From Burkholderiales bacterium Ga0077543 (GTDB lineage: Bacteria > Pseudomonadota > Gammaproteobacteria > Burkholderiales > Burkholderiaceae_C), in contig LNET01000025.1 in NCBI GenBank assembly GCA_001464055.1, forward strand, positions 62,001 to 126,000: 64,000 bases of DNA, in the 5' to 3' direction. How positions within the stretch are numbered: the first letter of the stretch is position 1; every line of letters begins with the position of its first letter. The translations under genes and the position numbers were made by a program. The notes under the pieces are model-generated. The model was not told the DNA's origin, made no database searches, and worked only from the letters and a program-made list of their open reading frames with translations. Below are positions 29,228 to 48,334 of this stretch, in pieces.

Positions 29228-30505
29228 TCAGTCGCGGCGCGCCTGGGCCGCGCTGCGCCGACGCCACAGCAGCAGCGCCATGGCGCCGCTGAGCATCATC
29301 AGCACGCTGGCCGGCTCGGGCACCACCTGCACGACCTTGCCGCCGAAGTCGACGATGAAGATCTCGCCGCCCGGGCCTTCGCCGAACGACGCGATGCTGA
29401 CCAGCGCGCCGGCCGCGCCAGAGTCGAGCACCGCTGTCAGGTCGGTGGCATTGGCCATGGTCTGGGCGCTGCCGTCGCCATTGATGGTCCAGATGCGGCC
29501 GGAGACGAAGTCGCCGAAAATGTACTGGCCGTACAGCACCGAGCTGGTGTCGCGCACCACGTAGCCGCCGGTGATGGACGCGCCGAAGCTGCGCGGGTAC
29601 ACCAGCATCGGGTCGACCATGCCCGGCTGCAGCGGGCCGCCCACGCCGCCCGGCGTGGCGATGTCGCCTTCGCGCAGGCGCCAGCCGAAGTTCTGGCCGC
29701 CAGGGCTGGCGGCGTCGATGAAGTTGATTTCCTCGCGCTGGCCCTGGCCCACGTCGGCGATCCACAGCGCGCCGGTCAGCCGGTCGAAGCTGCTGCGCCA
29801 GGGGTTGCGCAGCCCGGTGGCGAAGATTTCGCCACGCGTGCCGGCCACGCCCACGAAGGGGTTGTCGGTGGGCACGGCGTAGTTGATGGTGGGGCTGGCG
29901 AAGTCGTCGCCGTTGATGTTGATGCGCAGCATCTTGCCCAGCAGCACATTGGTGTTCTGGGCGTTGTTGAGCGGGTCGTTGCCACTGCCGCCGTCGCCGG
30001 TGGCGATGTACAGGTTGTTGGCGTCGCCGGGCTTGAAGCCGATCCAGCCCGCCTTGTGGTTGTTGAAACTGGGCTGGTCGATGCGGATCACCTCGACCCG
30101 GCTGGCGGGGTCGGCGGTCAGGCCATTGGCATTGGCGCGGTAGCTGGCGATGACCGTGTCCTGGTTGCTCGGGTCGGAATAATTGACGAAGAAACGGCGG
30201 AATCCGGCCGAGGCCGGATCGGCGTAGCCGGGGTCGAAAGCCAGGCCCAGCAAGCCTTGTTCGCCGCTGCTGGTGACGCCGATGCTGAGGAAGTTGCTGC
30301 TGACGCCGCCCGACACCGCCTTGATGGTGCCGCCTTTTTCAAGCACGAAGACCGGGCCGCCGGCCACTGGGGAAGTGGCATAGAGCGGCTGGGAGAGACC
30401 GCTGGCGATGAGCCGGGTGTCCAGCGTGGCGGCCGTGGCGGCCAGCGGCAGGATGGCGGCCAGGCCGAAAGCGGCCGCTGCAGCCTGGGTTTTTGGAAAC
30501 GTCAT
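29228..30505 (-). CDS. PQQ-dependent sugar dehydrogenase-like protein with PEP-CTERM tail
   Basis: A 425-residue exported beta-propeller of the soluble aldose dehydrogenase family: [64 protein letters not shown], and a late Trp/Gly-rich blade. The C-terminus is a PEP-CTERM signal ([20 protein letters not shown], then RRRS). It probably oxidises a sugar or sugar polymer at the cell surface. ATG 30505 follows GGGGAGATC. The propeller cofactor is inferred from the family. The gene is convergent with the other PEP-CTERM gene. Confidence 0.85.
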
Positions 30506-30531
30506 CACCGGATCTCCCCAAAAAAAACTGA

Positions 30532-30541
30532 TTTCGCGAAA
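30532..30541. promoter_or_regulatory. palindrome TTTCGCGAAA upstream of the sugar dehydrogenase
   Basis: A perfect 10-bp dyad 27 bases before the ATG, next to an A-tract (30520-30527). It could be an operator. I cannot name the factor. Confidence 0.35.
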
Positions 30542-30763
30542 CTTATCACGCTCGGTGAAGCCAGTCTGTACCTGGGCTGCAGGGGTGCAAGCATTGGTTA
30601 CAAGAGCCCTGTTCCCGCGCTGGGTCCGACCAGCGGCCGCGTTCTGCGGCTGCGGTTCGGCCACCTGCGGTCCGGGCCCGGCCTGCGGTGGCTACAGTCG
30701 CGACCAGCACGAACCGCCGTTCGAAGGCCACGCCATGAATGCCGACCTCACCCGGACCCCCCC

Positions 30764-34612: not shown

Positions 34613-34969
34613 ATGACCCCCATGCCCACGACCACACTCGCTTTCGCTGGACTACTCGTCGTCCTTGGCCTCGGTGCCTATGCCATCTCGTCCAGCAACA
34701 CGGCGCTGCTGCCCGCCGGTTTCGGCGCGGTGCTGATCGGGCTGGCGCTGCTGGCCCGGCAGATGCCGGGTGCCAGCAAGGTGCTGATGCATCTTGCGGC
34801 CGTGGTCGCCCTGCTGGGTGCCCTGGCGCCGGCGGCCGCGCTGGGCATTCGCGCTGCCGCGATGAGCCCGCTGGCGCTGTCGGTCAACCTGGGCATGCTC
34901 GCACTGTGTGGTGGCCTGCTGTTTCTGATGGTGCGGTCGATGATCGAGGCACGCCGAGCGCGCGGCTAG
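34613..34969 (+). CDS. small four-helix membrane protein
   Basis: A 118-residue very hydrophobic protein with four probable membrane segments (about 8-24, 32-48, 57-79 and 88-109) and a short basic C-terminus (RSMIEARRARG). No family is recognised. ATG 34613 is used; MPTTTL four codons later is an equal choice. It is intact although it lies between two decayed regulator fragments. Its role is unknown. Confidence 0.7.
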   Translation: MTPMPTTTLAFAGLLVVLGLGAYAISSSNTALLPAGFGAVLIGLALLARQMPGASKVLMHLAAVVALLGALAPAAALGIRAAAMSPLALSVNLGMLALCGGLLFLMVRSMIEARRARG

Positions 34970-35375
34970 CAGCGTGGTTGACACCGCCAGCGCGAGCGTG
35001 TGCTGCACCTGCATCACACGCCGCCAGGGGAATGGTGCGTCAACATCGAACTATTGCCCCTGGGCGCGGCGCGTTCACCGGCGCCCACAGCCCCAAGCCC
35101 GGGCTGGCGGAGGCGGTCAGCGGAGGCACCCTGTTCCTGGACGAGGTCGGCGACATTCTGCCGCCGATGCAGGTCCGGCTGCTGCGCCTGCTGGAAAGTG
35201 GTACCTGTCGCCGGGTGGTCAGCACCGAGCCGCGCCGCGCTGACGTGCGCGTGATCTCGGCCACGCACTGGAAGCTGAAGACGATGCTGGCGATCACGCT
35301 GGGAATCAGTGAACGGACGCTATACCGCAGCCTGCGGGACATCGAAGGCGAACCGCCCCTGTGAAGTGCCGGGCT
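34970..35375. other. 406-bp stretch holding only a pseudogene remnant
   Basis: It contains the NtrC-type remnant at 35000-35364 and no intact gene. A short run at the 5' side reads like the start of the AAA+ region in another frame (GEWCVNIELLP). Confidence 0.55.
35000..35364 (+). pseudogene. remnant of an NtrC-type sigma-54 activator
   Basis: The sigma-54-contact motif GAFTGAHSPKPGLAEAVSGG, Walker B GTLFLDEVGDI and LLESGTCRRVVSTEPRRADVRVISATH mark the AAA+ domain. Right after ATH the sequence jumps to LGISERTLYRSL, the DNA-binding helix-turn-helix at the C-terminus, so the rest of the ATPase is deleted. A frameshift before GAFTGA separates the preceding CVNIELLP piece. The receiver domain and most of the ATPase are missing, so it cannot work as an activator. 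Confidence 0.75.
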
Positions 35376-35847: not shown

Positions 35848-38800
35848 ATGAGGGGAACACGCGCCAGTCGCCCGCCTGCACACCAGGCCACTGGCCCCGT
35901 GCGGCAGCGCTCGTGCTGGTCGGCCGGCCCCATGCCGGCCCTGCTGCTGGCCCTGGTGCTGGCCGGCTGCGGTGGCGGCGAGCCCCACACCGATACCGCG
36001 CATGGCGCCAGCATCGCGGACGCAACCGACACGGGGGCTCCCGCGGCCTCGGCCGCCGCGCCCCCGCAGGAAGGGCGCATGCGCGTGCTGGCCATCCAGG
36101 GCCCGGAGCGATCGCGCTGGGCACCCCCGGTGGCGCTGTCGCTCGTACCTGCAGCCGGCGCGAACATGCCCGACGGCCGTGTGCTGCTGTGGTCGGCGCG
36201 CGACCGCTTCGAATTCGGCGGCGACCAGGGTCGTACCTACACCGTGGTGCTCAACCCAGGCACCGGCCAGGTCACGCAGAGCCTGGTGACGCAGACCGCG
36301 CACGACATGTTCTGCCCCGGCACCAGCAACCTGCCCGACGGGCGCATTCTCGTGAGCGGCGGCTCCTCGGCGAGGAAGACGAGCATCTTCAACCCCGTCA
36401 CCGGCGTCTGGACAGCGGCCGCGGCGCCGCAGATCGCCCGTGCGTACCACGCCAACACGGTGCTGGCCGACGGCTCGGTGTTCATGATCGGTGGCAGCTG
36501 GGCCGGTGGGGTGGGCAACAAGCACGGCGAGCGCTGGACCGAGGCCGGTGGCTGGCAGCTGCTGCCCGGGGTGCGCGTGGACAGCATGCTGTCGGTCGAC
36601 CCCAGCCGGAACTTCGGCATGGACAGCCACTTCTGGCTGCTGCCCAGCGGCAACGGCCGTGTCCTGTACGCCGGGCCGGGCGTGGAAATGCAGTGGATCG
36701 ACCCGCGCGGCAACGGCAGCGTGGAAGCCGCCGGCCGCCGCGGTGACGACGAGTTCAGCATCAACGGCAACACCGTGATGTACGACGCCGGCCTGACGCT
36801 GAAGACCGGCGGCGCGCCCGCCTACAGCGGCGCGCAGTCCAACGCCAACAGCTACGTCATCGACACCCGCAGCGCCCGTGCCGAGGTGCGCCGCATCGTG
36901 TCCATGAGCTACCGGCGCAGTTTCCACAACTCGGTGGTGCTGCCCAATGGCCAGGTGGTGGTGGTGGGTGGCGCCACCAACTCGAACGCCTTCACCGACG
37001 CCAATGCGGTGATGGTGCCCGAGCTCTTCGACCCCGCCACCGAAAGCTTCACCGTGATGCCGGCCATGCAGGTGGCACGCACGTACCACAGCCTGGCCTT
37101 GCTGCTGCCGGATGCGCGCGTGCTCGTCACCGGTGGCGGCCTGTGCGGCAGCGGCTGCGCGGCCAACCATGCCGACTACCAGATCCTGTCGCCCTACTAC
37201 CTGTTCAACGCCGACGGCAGCGTCGCCACGCGCCCGGCCATCAACAGCGCGCCGGCCAGCGCCACGCATGGCAGCAGCTTCACCGTCACCACCAGCATGC
37301 CGGTGACGGCGTTCTCGATGGTGCGCATGGCCAGCGCCACCCATGCCGTCAACAACGACCAGCGTCGCCTGAGCCTGACTTTCCGCACCACCGGCACCAA
37401 CACCTATGCCGTGGACATGCCGGCCAATGCCGGCTGGGCCGTGCCCGGCCAATGGATGCTGTTTGCGACGAACGCCGCCGGCGTGCCATCGGTCGCCCGG
37501 GTGCTGGGCATCAATGGCAATGGCGTGCCTCAACTGCAGGCACCACCCGACGCCAGCAGCGTGGTCGGCGTCACCGCCACGCTGGCGCTGCAAGCTGCCG
37601 GTGCCGGCAGCTTCAGCGCCACCGGCCTGCCCGACGGCCTGAGCCTGAACACCAGCACGGGGGTGATCAGCGGCGTGCCCACGCGCGCCGGCAGCTTCGT
37701 CGTCAGCGTCAGCGCGCGCAACGGCAATGGCGCAGCCAGCTGGGACTTCCGCTGGAACGTGCAGGCCGCGGGCGTGCCCGGGGGCTGGCGCCACGTACGC
37801 CTGGAAAGCACCTCGGCCGTCAATGACAACGTCTGGGCCAGCATGGCCGAATTCAACCTGCTCGACGCCGACGGCCGCGACATCCCGCGCCAGGGCTGGG
37901 TGGCCACGGCCAGCAGCTCCGAAGCCGTGGCTTCGGTCGATGCGCCAGCCCTGGCCATCGACGGCAACGTCAACACGTTCTGGCACACCCGCTACTCCAG
38001 CAACACGCCGGTTCACCCGCACAGCTTCAGCCTCAGCCTCGGGCAATCGCAGCGCATCGGTGGCTTCCGCTACCTGCCCCGGCCCGGCGGCGGCAACGGC
38101 ACCATCGCTGGCTGGCGCTTTCTGGCGAGCAACGACGGTCTGAACTGGACGCTGCTGGGCAGCGGCAACCTGACGACGCTGGGCGCCAACGAGACCGAGA
38201 AGACGGTGTATCTGCAGAACCAGGCACGCGGTCGGGCCGCAACCCAGTCCAGCACGCTGGATGGCATCGCCGTGGCGGGCCGCGCGGTCGACGGCAACAC
38301 CAACGGCAGTTTTGGCGCGGGCTCGGTGGCGCACACCAACCCCACGGCCCAGCCCTGGTGGGAGGTGGACCTGGGAGGCCAGAAGGCCCTGCATGCCATT
38401 CGTCTGTGGAACCGCATGGACTGCTGCGGCAACCGCTTGTCCGATTTCCATGTCTTGCTGTCGCCCGCGCCGATGACCGGCCTCAGCCTGGCCCAGCTGC
38501 TGGCCGACCCTTCGGTGCGGCGCGTTTCGGTGACGGGCGCGGCTGGCGCGTTGACGACGCTGCCGCTGTCCGGCAGTGGCCGTTACCTGCGCGTGCAACT
38601 GGCCGGCACCAACCCGCTTCAGCTGGCCGAGGTCGAGGCCTTTGGCCGTGATGCCGACAACGGCGCACCCCTGCTCACGACTCCGGCAGCGCAGAGCCAC
38701 CCGGCGGGAACCCCGCTGAGCCTGGCGCTGCAGGCCAGCGACCCCGACGGCGACCCGCTGGGCTGGTCTGCCTTGGGCCTGCCGCCGGGCCTGGCCCTCG

Positions 38801-41526
38801 ATGCCAGCACGGGCCTGGTCAGCGGAACGCCGGCAGTCGCTGGCGGCTACAACGTCCAGGTGACGGTTGCCGACGGTCGCGGCGGCAGCAGCACGGCCAG
38901 CTTCGCCTGGACGATCCAGACCGTGCTGCCGGTCATTGCACCCATCAGCACGCCCATCGTCATCCAGGGCGGCGGCGCCAGCTACAACGCCAGCGCAACG
39001 GGTGGCGGGCTGCAGTTCAGCTGGGACTTCGGCGACGGCAGCCCTGCCAGCGCCTGGAGCAATTCGGGCAGCATCAGCAAGGCCTGGACCGATGCCGGGG
39101 TTTACGCGGTGACGCTGAGCGTGCGCAACGCCAACGGTGACCTTGCCACGCGGCGCTTCTACCAGGCCGTTCAGACCCCTGGCAACAGCAGCATGCGCGC
39201 CGCAGCGACCAGCCCGATCGCTGTCCAGACCCGTGTCGCGGCCAGCGACCGCTTGTGGGTGGTGAACCCCGACAACGACAGCGTCAGCGTTTTCGACCTT
39301 GCCAGCAACGCCCGACTGGCCGAGATCCCGCTCAGCGCCCAACCGGTGAGCCTGGCCTTGGGGGGCAACGGCCTGGCCTATGTGGCCACGGGCCGGGGCG
39401 CCAGCGTGCACGTGATCGACATGAGCAGCCTGGCCGTGGTTACCAGCGTGGGGCTGGCACCGGGCTCGATGCCGCAGGGCATCGTGCTGCAAAGCGATGG
39501 CATCGGGTTCCTGAGCATGGAGGGCACGGGCGAGATCTTCCGCTTCACCACCGCTGGCGAGGTGACGGCGGTGGCCAGCGTGCCCGGGGTGCGCCAGCTC
39601 GCGCTCAGCCCCGATCGAACGCGTTTGCTGGCCTCGCGCTTCATCACCGCGCCCCAGGCCGGCGAGGCCACTGCCAGCGTGGCGGGCACGGGTGGCGCTG
39701 AAGTCGTGGAGCTGAACCCCGCCACCCTGGCACGCGTGCGCAGCTTCACGCTGGGTTTCTCCACCCGGCCCGACACCACGCTGGGCGCGCGCGGAGTGCC
39801 CAACTACCTGGGCGCAGCCGCCATCGCCCCGAACGGCCGCAGCGCCTGGGTGCCTTCCAAGCAGGACAATATCCAGCGCGGCACGCTGCGTGGCGGGGCG
39901 TCGCAGCCTCTGGACTTCCAGACCACGGTGCGCGCCGTCAGTTCGCGCCTGAACCTGGTGACGAATTCCGAAGACCTGCCCGGCCGTGTCGACCACGACA
40001 ACGCCGGCGTGGCCAGCGCGGCGCTGCATCACCCGGGTGGGGCCTATCTGTTCGTGGCGCTGGAAACCAACCGGCAGGTGGCGGTGATGGACGCGGTGGG
40101 TCAGCGCGAACTGTTCCGTCTGGAAGTGGGCCGTGCACCACAAGGCCTGGCGCTGTCCAGCGACGCCAGAACCCTGCTGGTGCACAACTTCATGGACCGC
40201 AGCGTCAGCCGCATCGACCTGGCTCCGCTGCTGGACTTTGGCGAAGCCAGCCTGCCCGCGCCGCTGGTGCTGGCCACGGTGGCCAGCGAAAGGCTGCCGG
40301 CTGCCGTGTTCAGGGGCAAGCAGTTCTTCTACGACGCCCGCGACACGCGCCTGGCACGCGACAGCTACCTGAGCTGCGCCAGCTGCCACAACGACGGAGG
40401 CCAGGACGGACGCACCTGGGACTTCAGCGGCTTCGGCGAAGGCCTGCGCAACACCGTGTCGCTGCGCGGGCGCGGCGGCACCGCTGGCGGCGCTGGCGGC
40501 GCCCACGGCCGGCTGCACTGGAGCGGCAACTTCGACGAGGTCCAGGACTTCGAGGCCCAGATCCGTGCCTTCGCCGGGGGCACGGGGCTGATGCCGGATG
40601 CGGTGTTCAGCGCCGGCACGCGCAGCCAGCCCCTGGGCGACCCGAAGGCCGGCCTGAGCGCTGACCTGGACGCGCTGGCGGCCTACGTGAATTCGCTCGA
40701 CAGTTTCGACCTCAGCCCCTGGCGGGCGGGCGGGCAACTGTCGGCGCAGGCGCAGGCCGGCCAGACGCTGTTTGCCAGCCGCTGTGCCAGCTGCCACGGC
40801 GGCACGGCCTTCAGCAACAGCAGCACGGGCGCGCTCGTCGATGTCGGCACGCTCAAGCCCGGCAGCGGCCTGCGCCTGGGCCAGCCGCTCACAGGCCTGG
40901 ATGTGCCGACCCTGCGCGACGCCTGGGCCACCGCGCCCTACCTGCACGACGGCTCGGCCGCGACGCTGGAAGCCGCGATCAGGGCGCACGGCACGCTGGC
41001 CATTCCCGAAGCCGAAGTCCCGGCGCTGGCTGCTTTTGTGCGCGAAATGGGCAGTGCGCAGGTGGCGGTGGCGCCCATCAGCCCGCCGGCCCCTGGCGTG
41101 CCAGGCTTGTTGGCCGCCTATTTCCCGAACATCGGCCTGTGGGGCGAACCGACGCTGCTGCGCAACGAAGCCATCGACTTCGGCTGGGGCACGGCCGCTG
41201 CGGCGGCGGGTCTCCCCAGCGACAACTTCTCGGTGCGCTGGACCGGCAGCCTGCTGCCACCCGCTGCCGGCAGCTACCGCTTGCAGACCACGGCTGACGA
41301 CGGCGTCCGCGTCTGGGTGAACAACGTGCTGGTCATCGACAACTGGTCCGACCAGGCCGCCACCACCACCACCAGCAGCGTCTTGAGCTTCAGCGCCGGC
41401 CTGGCCGTGCCCATCCGCGTGGAGTACTACGAGAACACCGGTGGCGCCGAAGTGCGGCTGCTCTGGCAAGTGCCGGGCGCCACCGGCTTCGAGGTGGTGC
41501 CGGCCAGCCGGCTGCGCCCACCGTGA
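35848..41526 (+). CDS. giant exported galactose oxidase-cytochrome c fusion protein
   Basis: A 1,892-residue protein with a lipoprotein-like signal (ALLLALVLAGC, Cys at about 39); ATG 35932 is an alternative start. Domains: galactose oxidase/DUF1929 (about 95-555), Ig-like He_PIG (560-645), two discoidin-like domains (646-775, 790-930), He_PIG (935-1025), PKD (1034-1110), YVTN-type propeller (1125-1490), cytochrome c with two CASCH haem sites (Cys1510 and Cys1646), and PA14 (1750-1892). The copper/radical residues line up with galactose oxidase in order and spacing: Cys156, Tyr200, Trp218, Tyr413, His414, His499. It probably oxidises an alcohol or sugar at the cell surface. The haem module could take electrons or remove H2O2. 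It is coupled (GTGA) to a cytochrome c gene. Confidence 0.88.
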   Translation: MRGTRASRPPAHQATGPVRQRSCWSAGPMPALLLALVLAGCGGGEPHTDTAHGASIADATDTGAPAASAAAPPQEGRMRVLAIQGPERSRWAPPVALSLVPAAGANMPDGRVLLWSARDRFEFGGDQGRTYTVVLNPGTGQVTQSLVTQTAHDMFCPGTSNLPDGRILVSGGSSARKTSIFNPVTGVWTAAAAPQIARAYHANTVLADGSVFMIGGSWAGGVGNKHGERWTEAGGWQLLPGVRVDSMLSVDPSRNFGMDSHFWLLPSGNGRVLYAGPGVEMQWIDPRGNGSVEAAGRRGDDEFSINGNTVMYDAGLTLKTGGAPAYSGAQSNANSYVIDTRSARAEVRRIVSMSYRRSFHNSVVLPNGQVVVVGGATNSNAFTDANAVMVPELFDPATESFTVMPAMQVARTYHSLALLLPDARVLVTGGGLCGSGCAANHADYQILSPYYLFNADGSVATRPAINSAPASATHGSSFTVTTSMPVTAFSMVRMASATHAVNNDQRRLSLTFRTTGTNTYAVDMPANAGWAVPGQWMLFATNAAGVPSVARVLGINGNGVPQLQAPPDASSVVGVTATLALQAAGAGSFSATGLPDGLSLNTSTGVISGVPTRAGSFVVSVSARNGNGAASWDFRWNVQAAGVPGGWRHVRLESTSAVNDNVWASMAEFNLLDADGRDIPRQGWVATASSSEAVASVDAPALAIDGNVNTFWHTRYSSNTPVHPHSFSLSLGQSQRIGGFRYLPRPGGGNGTIAGWRFLASNDGLNWTLLGSGNLTTLGANETEKTVYLQNQARGRAATQSSTLDGIAVAGRAVDGNTNGSFGAGSVAHTNPTAQPWWEVDLGGQKALHAIRLWNRMDCCGNRLSDFHVLLSPAPMTGLSLAQLLADPSVRRVSVTGAAGALTTLPLSGSGRYLRVQLAGTNPLQLAEVEAFGRDADNGAPLLTTPAAQSHPAGTPLSLALQASDPDGDPLGWSALGLPPGLALDASTGLVSGTPAVAGGYNVQVTVADGRGGSSTASFAWTIQTVLPVIAPISTPIVIQGGGASYNASATGGGLQFSWDFGDGSPASAWSNSGSISKAWTDAGVYAVTLSVRNANGDLATRRFYQAVQTPGNSSMRAAATSPIAVQTRVAASDRLWVVNPDNDSVSVFDLASNARLAEIPLSAQPVSLALGGNGLAYVATGRGASVHVIDMSSLAVVTSVGLAPGSMPQGIVLQSDGIGFLSMEGTGEIFRFTTAGEVTAVASVPGVRQLALSPDRTRLLASRFITAPQAGEATASVAGTGGAEVVELNPATLARVRSFTLGFSTRPDTTLGARGVPNYLGAAAIAPNGRSAWVPSKQDNIQRGTLRGGASQPLDFQTTVRAVSSRLNLVTNSEDLPGRVDHDNAGVASAALHHPGGAYLFVALETNRQVAVMDAVGQRELFRLEVGRAPQGLALSSDARTLLVHNFMDRSVSRIDLAPLLDFGEASLPAPLVLATVASERLPAAVFRGKQFFYDARDTRLARDSYLSCASCHNDGGQDGRTWDFSGFGEGLRNTVSLRGRGGTAGGAGGAHGRLHWSGNFDEVQDFEAQIRAFAGGTGLMPDAVFSAGTRSQPLGDPKAGLSADLDALAAYVNSLDSFDLSPWRAGGQLSAQAQAGQTLFASRCASCHGGTAFSNSSTGALVDVGTLKPGSGLRLGQPLTGLDVPTLRDAWATAPYLHDGSAATLEAAIRAHGTLAIPEAEVPALAAFVREMGSAQVAVAPISPPAPGVPGLLAAYFPNIGLWGEPTLLRNEAIDFGWGTAAAAAGLPSDNFSVRWTGSLLPPAAGSYRLQTTADDGVRVWVNNVLVIDNWSDQAATTTTSSVLSFSAGLAVPIRVEYYENTGGAEVRLLWQVPGATGFEVVPASRLRPP

Positions 41527-42017
41527 TACGGCTGTCACACGCGGCTCATGCCCGCCCGGTTCTGGGTGCCCTGGTTGCGGGCTGCCTGTGGGGGCTTGGC
41601 GCGCCTGCCCTGGCCAACCCGGCCTTGCAGCAAGGCCGGGCACTGTTCCTCGGCAGCGAAGCCATGCCGGCGCGTTCAGGCACCGGGGGCCCGGCATTGC
41701 CGGCCAGCGCCAGCCGTTGCAGCAACTGCCACAGCGCCCCGGGCGTGCCAGGCCTGGGCAGGGCGCCCGTCACTCCCGATGCCGGGTCCGCCGCGGGCAA
41801 CACCAGCTTCGGCCCGGCGCTGAATTCGGCACTGATGCTGAACGCGCAGCCGCGCCGCGGCGGCCCGTCCTCGCGCTACGACGCCCCGGCGCTGTGCCGG
41901 CTGCTGCGCCAGGGCATCGACCCGGCCGGCGTCGTGCTTGCCGCAGCGATGCCGCGTTATGTGCTCAGCGATGCGCAATGCCTGGCCCTGTGGACCCTGC
42001 TGACCAGCGACCTGTGA
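41523..42017 (+). CDS. small exported monohaem cytochrome c
   Basis: A 164-residue protein with a signal peptide (cleaved near ALA-NP, residue 31) and one haem site, CSNCH (Cys66, Cys69, His70). AAMPRY near the C-terminus could supply the methionine ligand. The GTG start overlaps the stop of the giant oxidase (GTGA), and its own stop overlaps the SCO gene start (GTGA). It is a natural electron acceptor for the two-haem module of the oxidase, by context only. Confidence 0.85.
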   Translation: MIRLSHAAHARPVLGALVAGCLWGLGAPALANPALQQGRALFLGSEAMPARSGTGGPALPASASRCSNCHSAPGVPGLGRAPVTPDAGSAAGNTSFGPALNSALMLNAQPRRGGPSSRYDAPALCRLLRQGIDPAGVVLAAAMPRYVLSDAQCLALWTLLTSDL

Positions 42018-42649
42018 GCCTGCCTCGTCACCCCGGCAAGCGCCGCCTGCTGCAGGCGGGTGCAGGGCTGTTGTCGCTGTCGCCGCTGCAAGCGCTGGTC
42101 GGGCGCCCGCCGCTGGCGATGTGGGCGGCCCTGGCCGCGACGCGCCCGGTGGCCGCGCATCCCGGGGCAGGGCGGGTCGACCCGCCGCTGCCAGCGCCGG
42201 CGCTGCCCTTGACGCTGCACGACGGCCGCCGCAGCAGCCTGCCGGCGCTGCTGCAAGGGCGGGCGACGGCGGTTCAGCTGATGTTCACCGGCTGCACCGC
42301 CATCTGTCCCATCCAGGGCGCGCTGTTTGCCGCCGTGCAGGCCGGTCTGCCGACGTCGGCGCGGGGTGCCGTGCAGTTGCTGTCGCTCAGCATCGACCCG
42401 TTGGGCGACGACGCCGCAGCGCTGCAGCGCTGGCTTCAGGCCCAGCGGTCGCAGCCCGGCTGGCGCGCGGCGGTGCCTGCCGTGGCCGATGTCGAGCGGC
42501 TGTTCGATTTCCTGGGCGGCCGCAGCAGCGGACCCGACCGCCACACCGCCCAGGTCTACCTATTCGACCGCCAAGGCCGGCTGGCCTTGCGCTCGGCCGA
42601 TTTCCCGACGCCACCGCAGGTGCAGGCCTGGCTGCAGGCACTGGCCTGA
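42014..42649 (+). CDS. SCO1/SenC-type copper chaperone
   Basis: A 211-residue thioredoxin-fold protein. The copper site is FTGCTAIC (Cys94, Cys98) with a late histidine in DRHTAQVYLFD (His177). The N-terminus (KRRLLQAG then a hydrophobic run) is a signal or membrane anchor, possibly Tat-like. SCO proteins usually metallate cytochrome oxidase, but there is no oxidase nearby; in Streptomyces a Sco protein is needed for the galactose-oxidase-like GlxA. Coupling to the copper-radical oxidase operon suggests the same job here. GTG 42014 overlaps the upstream stop. Confidence 0.87.
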   Translation: MSLPRHPGKRRLLQAGAGLLSLSPLQALVGRPPLAMWAALAATRPVAAHPGAGRVDPPLPAPALPLTLHDGRRSSLPALLQGRATAVQLMFTGCTAICPIQGALFAAVQAGLPTSARGAVQLLSLSIDPLGDDAAALQRWLQAQRSQPGWRAAVPAVADVERLFDFLGGRSSGPDRHTAQVYLFDRQGRLALRSADFPTPPQVQAWLQALA

Positions 42650-46711: not shown

Positions 46712-47146
46712 TTGTCACAAACCCACCGTCACGCCCCGCGGCGAAAGTCGCTCGGCTTTACTTTGCTCGAGCTGCTGGTGGTCATGGTGATCATCGGGCT
46801 GCTGGCGGGTTATGTCGGGCCCAAGTTGTTCGGCCAGATCGGCAAGTCCGAGGTCAAGGCCGCCAAGGCCCAGATCGACGCGCTGCAGAAGTCGCTGGAC
46901 CAGTACCGCATCGACACCGGGCAGTATCCCAGTACCGAGCAAGGATTGGTGGCCTTGGTATCTCGCCCTGCCGACGAGCCCAAATGGGCCGGCCCCTATC
47001 TGTCCAAGGCCGTTCCCGCGGATCCCTGGGGTCGCGACTATCAGTATCGGTCGCCTGGCCAGCATGGCGAGTTCGACCTGCTGTCGCTGGGCAAGGACGG
47101 CCAACCCGGCGGCGAAGGTGACAGCGCTGACATCGTCAGCTGGTGA
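46712..47146 (+). CDS. gspG: type II secretion major pseudopilin GspG
   Basis: A 144-residue pseudopilin. The prepilin cleavage site and helix are SLGFTLLELLVVMVIIGLL, with Glu at position 5. The family features GQYPSTEQGLVAL and DPWGRDYQYRSPGQHGEFDL are present, the latter around the calcium site. TTG 46712 is the start; no other codon gives the short basic leader. It opens an operon of twelve tightly packed reading frames. Confidence 0.93.
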   Translation: MSQTHRHAPRRKSLGFTLLELLVVMVIIGLLAGYVGPKLFGQIGKSEVKAAKAQIDALQKSLDQYRIDTGQYPSTEQGLVALVSRPADEPKWAGPYLSKAVPADPWGRDYQYRSPGQHGEFDLLSLGKDGQPGGEGDSADIVSW

Positions 47147-47158
47147 GGCGCGCACCCG

Positions 47159-48334
47159 ATGCCGGACTTCCAGGTTCGAATTCACGAACCGCCGCGTGGG
47201 GTGCGTGAGCTGCGGGTCACGGCCGAACACGCCGGGCGGGTAGCCGATGTCCTGGGCATCGCCCCGGCACGGCTGCTCTCCGTCGCCCCGGCCTCGCCGC
47301 CGCGGCGAGAGCGCGGCAAACCGCTGGGCCTGCGGTTGCTGGCGCAGGAGCTTTCGGTGCTGCTCCAGGCGGGCATTCCGCTGCTGGAGGCTTTGCAGAC
47401 ACTGAAGGAAAAAGACAGCGGCGCACATGCGCTGGACGTCGTGCTGGCAGCCTTGCGCGAAGGGCGGACGCTCTCGGCGGCACTGGCGTTGGCGCCGCGC
47501 GACTTCGACGAGCTTTTCATCGCCGTGGTGTCGGCCAGTGAACGCACCGGGCAGCTCGCGCCGACCCTGCGCGACCATGCCGCCTACCTGGCCTGGAGCG
47601 AGGCGCTGCGCGCGCGCCTGGTCGCGGCAGGCGTCTACCCGCTGATGCTGTTGATGGCCGGCGGCGCCGTCATCCTGTTTCTGCTGCTGTACGTGCTGCC
47701 GCGTTTTGCCGGTGTCTTCGACGGCCTGGGTCGCGATGTTCCTGCGGCTTCGCAGGCCTTGATGGCGCTGGGTGTGGCTGCCGGCGCGAACCCCGGCGTG
47801 GCCCTGGGCCTGGCGGCGGCCTTGGTCGTACTGGTGCTGGCGCTCTGGCGCTCACCTGCCGCCAGCGCTGCCGTGGCCCGGCTGGCCTGGCGCAGCCCGG
47901 GCATCGGTGCTCGCCTGCGCGTGCTGGCCCTGGCGCGGCTGTACCGCTGTCTGGCGCTGCTGCTGTCGGCGGGTGTGCCCGTGCCAGCCGCGTTGCGCCT
48001 GGCCGAAGGCGTGCTCGCCGCCCCCCTGCGACCGGCCTTGCAAGCCACGCTGGCCCAGGTGTCCAGCGGCATCAGGCTGTCCCAGGCGATGCAGGCCGAG
48101 GGTCTTGCCACGCCCGTGGCCCTGCGCATGCTTCGGGTGGGCGAAAGCAGCGGCGAGGTCGCGGCCATGTTCGAGCGCGCCGCCGCCTTTCACGACGAAG
48201 AGATCTCGCGCCTGGGCGACCTGGTGACGCGCATCGTCAACCCCGTGCTCATGCTGGTGATGGGCGTGGTGATCGGCGGCATCGTGGTGCTGATGTACCT
48301 GCCGATCTTCACGCTGATGGAGCAGGTGCAGTGA
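47159..48334 (+). CDS. gspF: type II secretion inner-membrane platform protein GspF
   Basis: A 391-residue membrane protein with two GspF domains (about 65-185 and 265-385), each with the helical LLEALQTLKEKD / ALRLAEGVLA-type pattern, and three membrane segments (about 160-185, 205-230 and 365-390). It anchors the ATPase and helps assemble the pseudopilus. Its stop overlaps the gspE GTG. Confidence 0.9.
   Translation: MPDFQVRIHEPPRGVRELRVTAEHAGRVADVLGIAPARLLSVAPASPPRRERGKPLGLRLLAQELSVLLQAGIPLLEALQTLKEKDSGAHALDVVLAALREGRTLSAALALAPRDFDELFIAVVSASERTGQLAPTLRDHAAYLAWSEALRARLVAAGVYPLMLLMAGGAVILFLLLYVLPRFAGVFDGLGRDVPAASQALMALGVAAGANPGVALGLAAALVVLVLALWRSPAASAAVARLAWRSPGIGARLRVLALARLYRCLALLLSAGVPVPAALRLAEGVLAAPLRPALQATLAQVSSGIRLSQAMQAEGLATPVALRMLRVGESSGEVAAMFERAAAFHDEEISRLGDLVTRIVNPVLMLVMGVVIGGIVVLMYLPIFTLMEQVQ

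Follow-up and report, generated by a model that had tools for sequence, protein, structure and literature searches.

In the window, which is the whole stretch of 64,000 nt analysed here from Burkholderiales bacterium Ga0077543 (GCA_001464055.1, contig LNET01000025.1, positions 62,001-126,000, forward strand), an operon of three genes joins a copper radical oxidase (CRO) and a two-haem c module in a single chain and has a small cytochrome c and a copper chaperone of the SCO family behind it. The first gene is an open reading frame on the plus strand, 35848-41526, that begins with ATG, has no internal stops and encodes 1892 aa; it is followed by a gene for a one-haem cytochrome c of 164 aa and then by one for an SCO protein of 211 aa. 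The order of domains in the 1892-aa chain is lipobox, CRO, Ig-like, two F5/8 type C (F5/8C) domains, Ig-like, PKD, YVTN propeller, two-haem c module and PA14, and the Pfam matches on it were Kelch, GO-like_E_set, F5/8C (two), He_PIG (two), PKD, CCP_MauG, cytochrome c and PA14. A preliminary description of this DNA had placed a propeller, two CASCH sites and lectin-like, PKD and PA14 domains in one chain, and all of these were found, except that the propellers number two, the Kelch propeller of the CRO and the YVTN propeller. It had also stated that all three genes overlap by GTGA; the GTGA, in which a start lies over the preceding stop, is there, but the three genes share two such overlaps, at 41523-41526 and 42014-42017. 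The features are listed below in window coordinates, and conservation is given as rows of the alignments (196 for the CRO, 205 for the haem module), which were not deduplicated and in which the window is counted up to three times.

35848..41526, plus strand: fused gene, 1892 aa (open reading frame, residues, Pfam and PDB matches)
35848..35970, plus strand: signal with lipobox LAGC and predicted lipidated Cys41, then Gly (sequence LVLAGC/G)
36106..37512, plus strand: CRO domain, residues 87-555, Kelch propeller and GO-like E-set (9g8h_A, E=3e-162; PF09118, E=6e-21)
36313..36315, plus strand: Cys156, position of the crosslink partner of Tyr200 (196/196 rows)
36445..36447, plus strand: Tyr200, position of the radical tyrosine and copper ligand (196/196 rows)
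36499..36501, plus strand: Trp218, position of the stacking tryptophan (Trp in 148/196 rows)
37084..37089, plus strand: Tyr413-His414, copper ligand positions (196/196 rows each)
37342..37344, plus strand: His499, copper ligand position (196/196 rows)
37903..38229, plus strand: F5/8 type C domain 1, residues 686-794 (PF00754, E=2.9e-24)
38281..38595, plus strand: F5/8 type C domain 2, residues 812-916 (PF22633, E=2.7e-23)
38665..38916, plus strand: He_PIG Ig-like domain, residues 940-1023 (PF05345, E=7.9e-27, best of two stretches)
38992..39150, plus strand: PKD domain, residues 1049-1101 (PF00801, E=7.5e-14)
39211..40236, plus strand: YVTN beta-propeller, about residues 1122-1463
40240..41082, plus strand: two-haem c module, residues 1465-1745 (PF03150, PF13442; profile matches to hydrazine synthase gamma, CcpA and MauG)
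40375..40389, plus strand: haem 1 site CASCH, residues 1510-1514 (both Cys and His in 205/205 rows)
40516..40521, plus strand: His1557-Trp1558, the Trp aligning with the inter-haem Trp of CCP/MauG (203/205 rows each, 2 gaps)
40783..40797, plus strand: haem 2 site CASCH, residues 1646-1650 (203/205 rows, 2 gaps)
40987..40989, plus strand: His1714, sixth-ligand position of the C-terminal haem by alignment (His in 200/205 rows)
41098..41499, plus strand: PA14 domain, residues 1751-1884 (PF07691, E=1.9e-28)
41523..42017, plus strand: one-haem cytochrome c, 164 aa, CSNCH at residues 66-70, conserved Met143-Pro144 and extra conserved Cys125 and Cys153 (28 rows)
42014..42649, plus strand: SCO copper chaperone, 211 aa, Cys94, Cys98 and His177 (PF02630, E=3.8e-11)

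Galactose oxidases in the PDB align with the CRO over the full domain, 9g8h_A with residues 87-555 (E=3e-162) and 1gof_A with residues 85-554 (E=1.5e-119). The six residues that the preliminary description had matched to galactose oxidase, Cys156, Tyr200, Trp218, Tyr413, His414 and His499, are all present with spacings of 44, 18, 1 (413 to 414) and 85 as it gave them, and the Cys, Tyr, Tyr, His and His of the AA5 family therefore stand at the galactose oxidase positions. The galactose oxidase numbers 228, 272, 290, 495, 496 and 581 are those of that description, which we take to be correct. Neither half of the protein is decaying, since all 196 CRO rows keep the five cofactor and ligand residues and each haem site is kept in 203-205 of the 205 haem rows. 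The arginine in the sugar pocket of galactose oxidase 9g8h, presumably Arg330 of the Fusarium enzyme, is replaced by Gly257 in the window, and Arg is found at this position in 4 of the 12 other representatives of the window's CRO clade. With Gly in place of Arg, galactose is unlikely to be the substrate of the window enzyme, which judging from the sequence of its pocket probably oxidises another alcohol. The lipobox pattern was found in 97 of the 113 fusion proteins that could be assessed (120 were listed, of which 7 were too short to judge) compared to 8.6% of shuffled N-termini; it is also present in 13 of 14 separate two-haem proteins but in only 20 of 109 assessable unfused CROs. The 1892-aa protein is thus, by its N-terminus, probably an outer-membrane lipoprotein.

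The small cytochrome is assigned to class I by its motifs, CSNCH and Met143-Pro144 (Met in 27/28 rows); the 164-aa protein had no match in Pfam or the PDB. The third gene is SCO1/SenC-like, with PF02630 above the cut-off, the motif CTAIC and a distal conserved His; Cys94 is kept in 45/46 rows, Cys98 in 46/46 and His177 in 45/45. A twin-arginine-like KRRLLQAG can be seen by eye at the N-terminus of this SCO (42014-42649), which may be exported by the twin-arginine (Tat) route.

When the fusion was searched for in other genomes, as the preliminary description had proposed, it proved to be genuine and widespread. The protein search returned 2451 relatives at E<=1e-3; in each of the 120 that were listed, among them the window's own protein as P0001, a CRO domain and a two-haem domain are both present, which is far beyond chance. 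Among 207 chains or pieces, made up of the 120 proteins and 87 locus frames, 194 have both halves, 1 has the CRO alone, 10 have the haem part alone and 2 have neither, all the incomplete ones being locus frames, and the CRO precedes the haem module in 194/194 chains that have both. A scan of species genomes gave 326 relatives, of which 79 loci, which are not independent, were kept as the best by similarity to the window; these are mostly annotated as Burkholderiales and also as Methylophilaceae, Steroidobacter, Leucothrix, Methylobacter, Methylobrevis and Verrucomicrobia such as Prosthecobacter. The genome of the window itself has three fusions, namely that of the window, one on contig C71 (66% identity) and one on contig C38 (31% identity in the CRO and 52% in the haem part). 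An assembly join as the origin of the fusion is ruled out because the fusion is seen in numerous independent genomes and the window's genome has two further ones.

The family is patchy. Of 37 genomes in the window's genus 8, counting the window's own, gave a strong match (E<1e-200), and the YVTN two-haem module was found at E<=1e-60 in 5 of 369 genomes class-wide and 12 of 399 order-wide. In the order sample of 399 genomes the haem module is present in 12, CROs in 21 and both in 8 (p=6e-9), and by genus the two are shared in 5 cases (p=2e-5); some of the shared cases are fusions, so these p-values are not from independent events. In one genus (G045, G543, G700 and G729) the CRO and the haem module are both present as separate genes. 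At L089, L110, L111 and L112, which belong to one genus, the YVTN two-haem module is a separate gene and CROs lie elsewhere in the genome.

The two-haem module has the two CxxCH c-haem sites of CCP and, by its sequence, is a CCP/MauG relative that lacks the defining ligands of either. When it was aligned with CCP, with MbnH of the MauG type and with a CCP-like protein that the same genome encodes, His1714 fell at the position of the sixth ligand of the C-terminal haem, and it aligns with a Tyr in the MbnH-like part of locus L060. We take this ligand to be Met in CCP and Tyr in MauG and MbnH, and at this position of haem 2 the window has neither but His instead. Asp1567 is invariant in the 203 filled rows, Glu1569 is nearly invariant and Gln1571 is kept. 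The position of the catalytic Glu aligns with Leu1581 (Leu in 202/205 rows), in an alignment made uncertain by an insertion; the register near Gln1566 and Gln1571 is also uncertain, and Asp1567 and Glu1569 could substitute for the catalytic Glu. The classical distal His, at the spacing that we take it to have, had no counterpart in the module alignments.

These residues bear on the suggestion of the preliminary description that the haem module could act as a peroxidase. On such a reading the module would consume in cis the H2O2 made by the CRO, as a bacterial cytochrome c peroxidase does, with the small cytochrome as its electron donor, and would thereby both protect the enzyme and activate it. 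The place of the module in the CCP/MauG superfamily by sequence and the conserved inter-haem Trp and nearby Gln are consistent with such a role, but His in place of Met or Tyr at the sixth-ligand position, Leu in line with the catalytic Glu and the missing distal His weaken it, and the small cytochrome also accompanies CROs that have no two-haem module. We therefore consider a peroxidase in cis somewhat unlikely and, as the module is without the usual peroxidase ligands, rate electron transfer above peroxidase action. Precedents for a peroxidase do exist in what has been described of the fungal CRO-peroxidase pairs (PMC9770985) and of GlxA and DtpA (PMC4736821).

The neighbours of the fusion were examined next to those of unfused CROs. 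SCO adjoins the fusion in 41 of the 79 loci, and in the 49 loci that have 2 kb on both sides it was found in 27, downstream in 18, upstream in 8 and upstream on the opposite strand in 1. The small cytochrome is present in 25 of the 79 loci, always with SCO, and in all 19 fully flanked loci having it the two are on the same side; at L071 the SCO and cytochrome profiles match a single frame. A complete Comamonadaceae plasmid has the window's three genes in identical order. The linkage of CRO, cytochrome and SCO is also found without the fusion. In two Cupriavidus plasmid records and on plasmids of Paraburkholderia and Caballeronia, an unfused CRO of the ricin type is preceded by SCO and followed by the small cytochrome, and an unfused CRO of Burkholderia arboris has both downstream. 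On the Paraburkholderia and Caballeronia plasmids (L128 and L129) the CRO between the two is a ricin-lectin galactose oxidase, and the small cytochrome c is annotated as hypothetical or is unannotated. Ten plasmid records have a CRO at E<=1e-30, and all 6 from Burkholderiales have SCO (E<=1e-15) and the small cytochrome (E<=1e-10), the CRO being fused in 1 of the 6; the other 4 (3 Streptomyces and 1 Sinorhizobium) have neither, and no plasmid record beyond the 6 Burkholderiales had SCO or the small cytochrome at these limits. In a search of 399 genomes the small cytochrome was found in 14, and the match was strong (E<1e-50) solely in G000 and G052, in both beside the fusion, the remaining 13 places (12 genomes) being weak with E of 3.9e-14 and higher.

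At 44 other places that have a CRO without a two-haem part, SCO (E<=1e-6) or the small cytochrome (E<=1e-15) was found at none. Of these places 34 have 2 kb on both sides (SCO 0/34, cytochrome 0/34), and the rest are near the end of a contig or stretch and some are possibly pieces of fusions (L167 and L179); a further place, L172, was dropped because it had no CRO match, and the 4 of the 44 that were put on the CRO tree all fall outside the window's clade. The difference between 27/49 fusions and 0/34 other unfused CROs with SCO is significant (Fisher p=1e-8), in a comparison where the loci are not independent and the fused and unfused sets come from different draws. Two simple assignments are ruled out by these counts. 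The small cytochrome is not the partner of the two-haem module alone, as it occurs beside unfused CROs, and SCO and the cytochrome are not partners of all CROs, as 0/34 of the unfused ones have them. Where the two-haem module is missing, the small cytochrome still accompanies the CRO and SCO, and for this reason we read it as an electron partner of the oxidase. This changes the earlier proposal that the haem module could act as an electron outlet to the small cytochrome, as the latter is tied to the CRO and SCO and not to the module only.

The recurrence of a copper chaperone raises the question whether the haem partners are a maturation device, which would convert Cu(I) bound by SCO into Cu(II) or bring about the Cys-Tyr crosslink and be dispensable in turnover. 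SCO stands beside many haem-coupled CROs and beside none of the 34 other unfused ones, and in four of the 79 loci, all without SCO (L050, L060, L079 and L080), MbnP is upstream of the fusion in its place. Three of these four are annotated as Verrucomicrobia or Prosthecobacter, alongside one Verrucomicrobiaceae record, and at L060 (294-2051), the sole MbnP locus scanned with Pfam, the MbnP copper-binding protein is itself fused to a MauG-type module. MauG offers an analogy, as it acts in this manner on another cofactor. On the other hand, the crosslink of galactose oxidase presumably needs copper and O2 alone, and a one-time role needs no partner fused to each enzyme molecule, so that we think a pure maturation role unlikely. 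It is the hypothesis put forward by the authors of the GlxA work, in the part of it used here, that DtpA oxidises Sco-bound Cu(I) (PMC4736821).

What is described of other CROs suggests a further function for a haem partner. CROs rest as inactive Cu(II)-tyrosine and are activated by one-electron oxidation, by horseradish peroxidase in vitro and by a partner peroxidase in Colletotrichum, and electron paramagnetic resonance is reported to support the one-electron oxidation of the fungal CRO to the Cu(II)-radical by this peroxidase (PMC9770985). Maturation of Streptomyces GlxA at low copper is reported to require both Sco and the haem peroxidase DtpA (PMC4736821). The best explanation of the window's operon, to which we assign a probability of about 0.5, is that it encodes a haem-coupled copper radical oxidase system, with copper loaded by SCO and with haems that either activate the radical or draw off the electrons of the substrate. 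The oxidase would be an outer-membrane lipoprotein held on its substrate by the lectin-like domains; SCO would deliver copper to the CRO domain, which, as its invariant residues and the chemistry of galactose oxidase suggest, would form the Cys156-Tyr200 cofactor and oxidise an alcohol, probably not galactose. The redox partners of the CRO would be the small cytochrome c and the two-haem module, a YVTN propeller that carries two c haems. By removing one electron from Cu(II)-tyrosine in its resting state they would give the active radical, and they may also pass electrons of the substrate to the respiratory chain. As to the role of the haems, the sequence is compatible with switching on, with maturation and with an outlet for substrate electrons. 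The interpretation in the preliminary description is thus borne out in part, by a fusion that is real and found in many genomes, by the repeated presence of SCO next to it, and by the precedents of GlxA and the fungal pairs.

A stronger version of the electron outlet would make the CRO an alcohol dehydrogenase whose electrons pass via the c haems to the respiratory chain, with O2 not the direct oxidant and H2O2 not the main product. We find this version rather doubtful; if electrons do leave via c haems, it would be a new mode for CROs, of use where alcohol-oxidation biocatalysts at present depend on added horseradish peroxidase.

Several observations weigh against the haem-coupled system as proposed. 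Besides the reduction of O2 by standard CROs without a partner and the absence of SCO and cytochrome from the 34 unfused ones, neither SCO nor the cytochrome adjoins the fusion in 22 of the 49 fully flanked loci, 2 of which have MbnP upstream. In 20 rows of YVTN two-haem modules that were taken as CRO-less, His1557 and Trp1558 are present in 20/20, His1714 in 17/20 and Leu1581 in 14/20, and since the special haem residues are common to these rows they are not an adaptation to the CRO. YVTN two-haem modules are also found behind LVIVD/Big_5 regions, so the module has other uses. An AlphaFold2 model of a minimal core of CRO, propeller and haem part (from the paralogue on contig C38) had a predicted template modelling score (pTM) of 0.61, at which a contact of the copper site and the haem site is not indicated; the matches shown by the structural searches were propellers, and the haem part was barely probed by them.

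The CRO-less modules with the same special residues speak for another reading, in which the chain would be two enzymes on one anchor, the module being an independent oxidoreductase, for example a RoxA-like oxygenase, co-targeted with the CRO to one substrate by the lectin and PA14 domains. The chain is rich in binding domains, and the RoxA-like family PF21419 matches the window at 24.8 bits against a cut-off of 26.7 and some relatives above the cut-off. The CRO and the module, however, recur together in several clades, and as separate genes they share genomes in one genus. Moreover, the residue before the inter-haem Trp is His1557, which may be the equivalent of F301 of RoxA if W302 is the Trp there. 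The RoxA pocket is described as wholly hydrophobic with two Phe (PMC6797691), and we hold two independent enzymes to be quite improbable. At L088, L113, L114 and L115 there are YVTN two-haem proteins in which a CRO was not recognised, with LVIVD and Big_5 upstream in the three that were scanned with Pfam (L088, L113 and L115), and the L088 gene adjoins a gene for a GSDH-NPCBM protein.

Turning again to the haem-coupled oxidase, a tree of 65 CRO domains (39 fused and 26 unfused) has the two kinds interleaved, and the fused state needs 10 changes on it, which fall to 5 without five unfused rows that are possibly truncated. A clade of 35 rows (support 100/100) contains the window's CRO clade (18 rows) and also ricin-lectin galactose oxidases such as are annotated in Cupriavidus and Caballeronia. 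For the YVTN two-haem part, two of 59 rows were dropped because their matches were overlong; the tree of the other 57 mixes CRO types, and some of its rows labelled CRO-less may be fragments at contig ends (L109 begins at one). For example, L068 (type B1) groups with L015 (type A) with a support of 97/92; since both belong to a single genome bin, their pairing may be due to gene conversion. As the CRO and haem trees disagree, the partners were probably exchanged, and a single ancient fusion inherited with the CRO is unsupported. Both trees are unrooted and gain therefore looks the same as loss. The separate YVTN two-haem lipoprotein P0340 groups with the fused L014 (100/97), and P0208 is a separate CRO of 549 aa; the source contigs of both are listed at an equal size (9734), which together with the placement of P0340 suggests that P0208 and P0340 are products of a split gene.

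The preliminary description had stated that it knew of no described system with this fusion, and this holds within the open-licence literature, mostly at the level of title and abstract, in which no description of a CRO-haem fusion or of the trio of SCO, CRO and cytochrome was found. Galactose oxidases and other AA5 CROs share with the window the Kelch propeller, the Cys-Tyr pair, the two His, the Tyr and the stacking Trp, but the window CRO is fused to a two-haem module and has Gly257 where 9g8h has Arg. The di-haem proteins CCP, MauG and MbnH share the two CxxCH sites, the inter-haem Trp and a motif of the PY(L/M)HDGS type with the module, which differs in His1714, in the Leu at the Glu position and in being preceded by a YVTN propeller. 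The beta and gamma subunits of hydrazine synthase are two separate chains in another complex and a CRO is absent there. An AA5 alcohol oxidase with an inactive CE3 domain as its fusion partner was reportedly described by Mazurkewich in 2023; it is likewise a bacterial CRO fused to another domain, but the partner is esterase-like and not a haem module. Beyond Streptomyces and a few fungi we know of no studied case of radical upkeep or copper loading in CROs. The Sco-DtpA-GlxA system has a CRO, SCO and haem parts and a GlxA maturation that depends on SCO and the haem peroxidase, but its DtpA is described as separate and of the DyP type (PMC4736821), whereas the window has fused c haems and a dedicated small cytochrome c. 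The fungal tandem pair of peroxidase and alcohol oxidase likewise has a haem protein that activates a CRO by one-electron oxidation, but it is a separate class II peroxidase, and a copper chaperone or cytochrome c is unmentioned in the portion of that paper drawn on here (PMC9770985). Because this large bacterial family genetically joins the oxidase and its haem partner in one chain, often with the copper chaperone, radical upkeep and copper loading become testable with a single operon.

Other genes lie around the operon. Genes G and F of type II secretion are at 46712-48334 on the plus strand, about 4 kb downstream of it. Just upstream, at 34906-35364, there is a fragment of a sigma-54 activator that spans only positions 75-150 of a Pfam model 168 positions long and has by eye a helix-turn-helix-like tail and the appearance of a gene remnant. 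On the minus strand at 29228-30664 there is a glucose/sorbosone dehydrogenase-like protein, the PEP-CTERM tail of which scores slightly under the Pfam cut-off.

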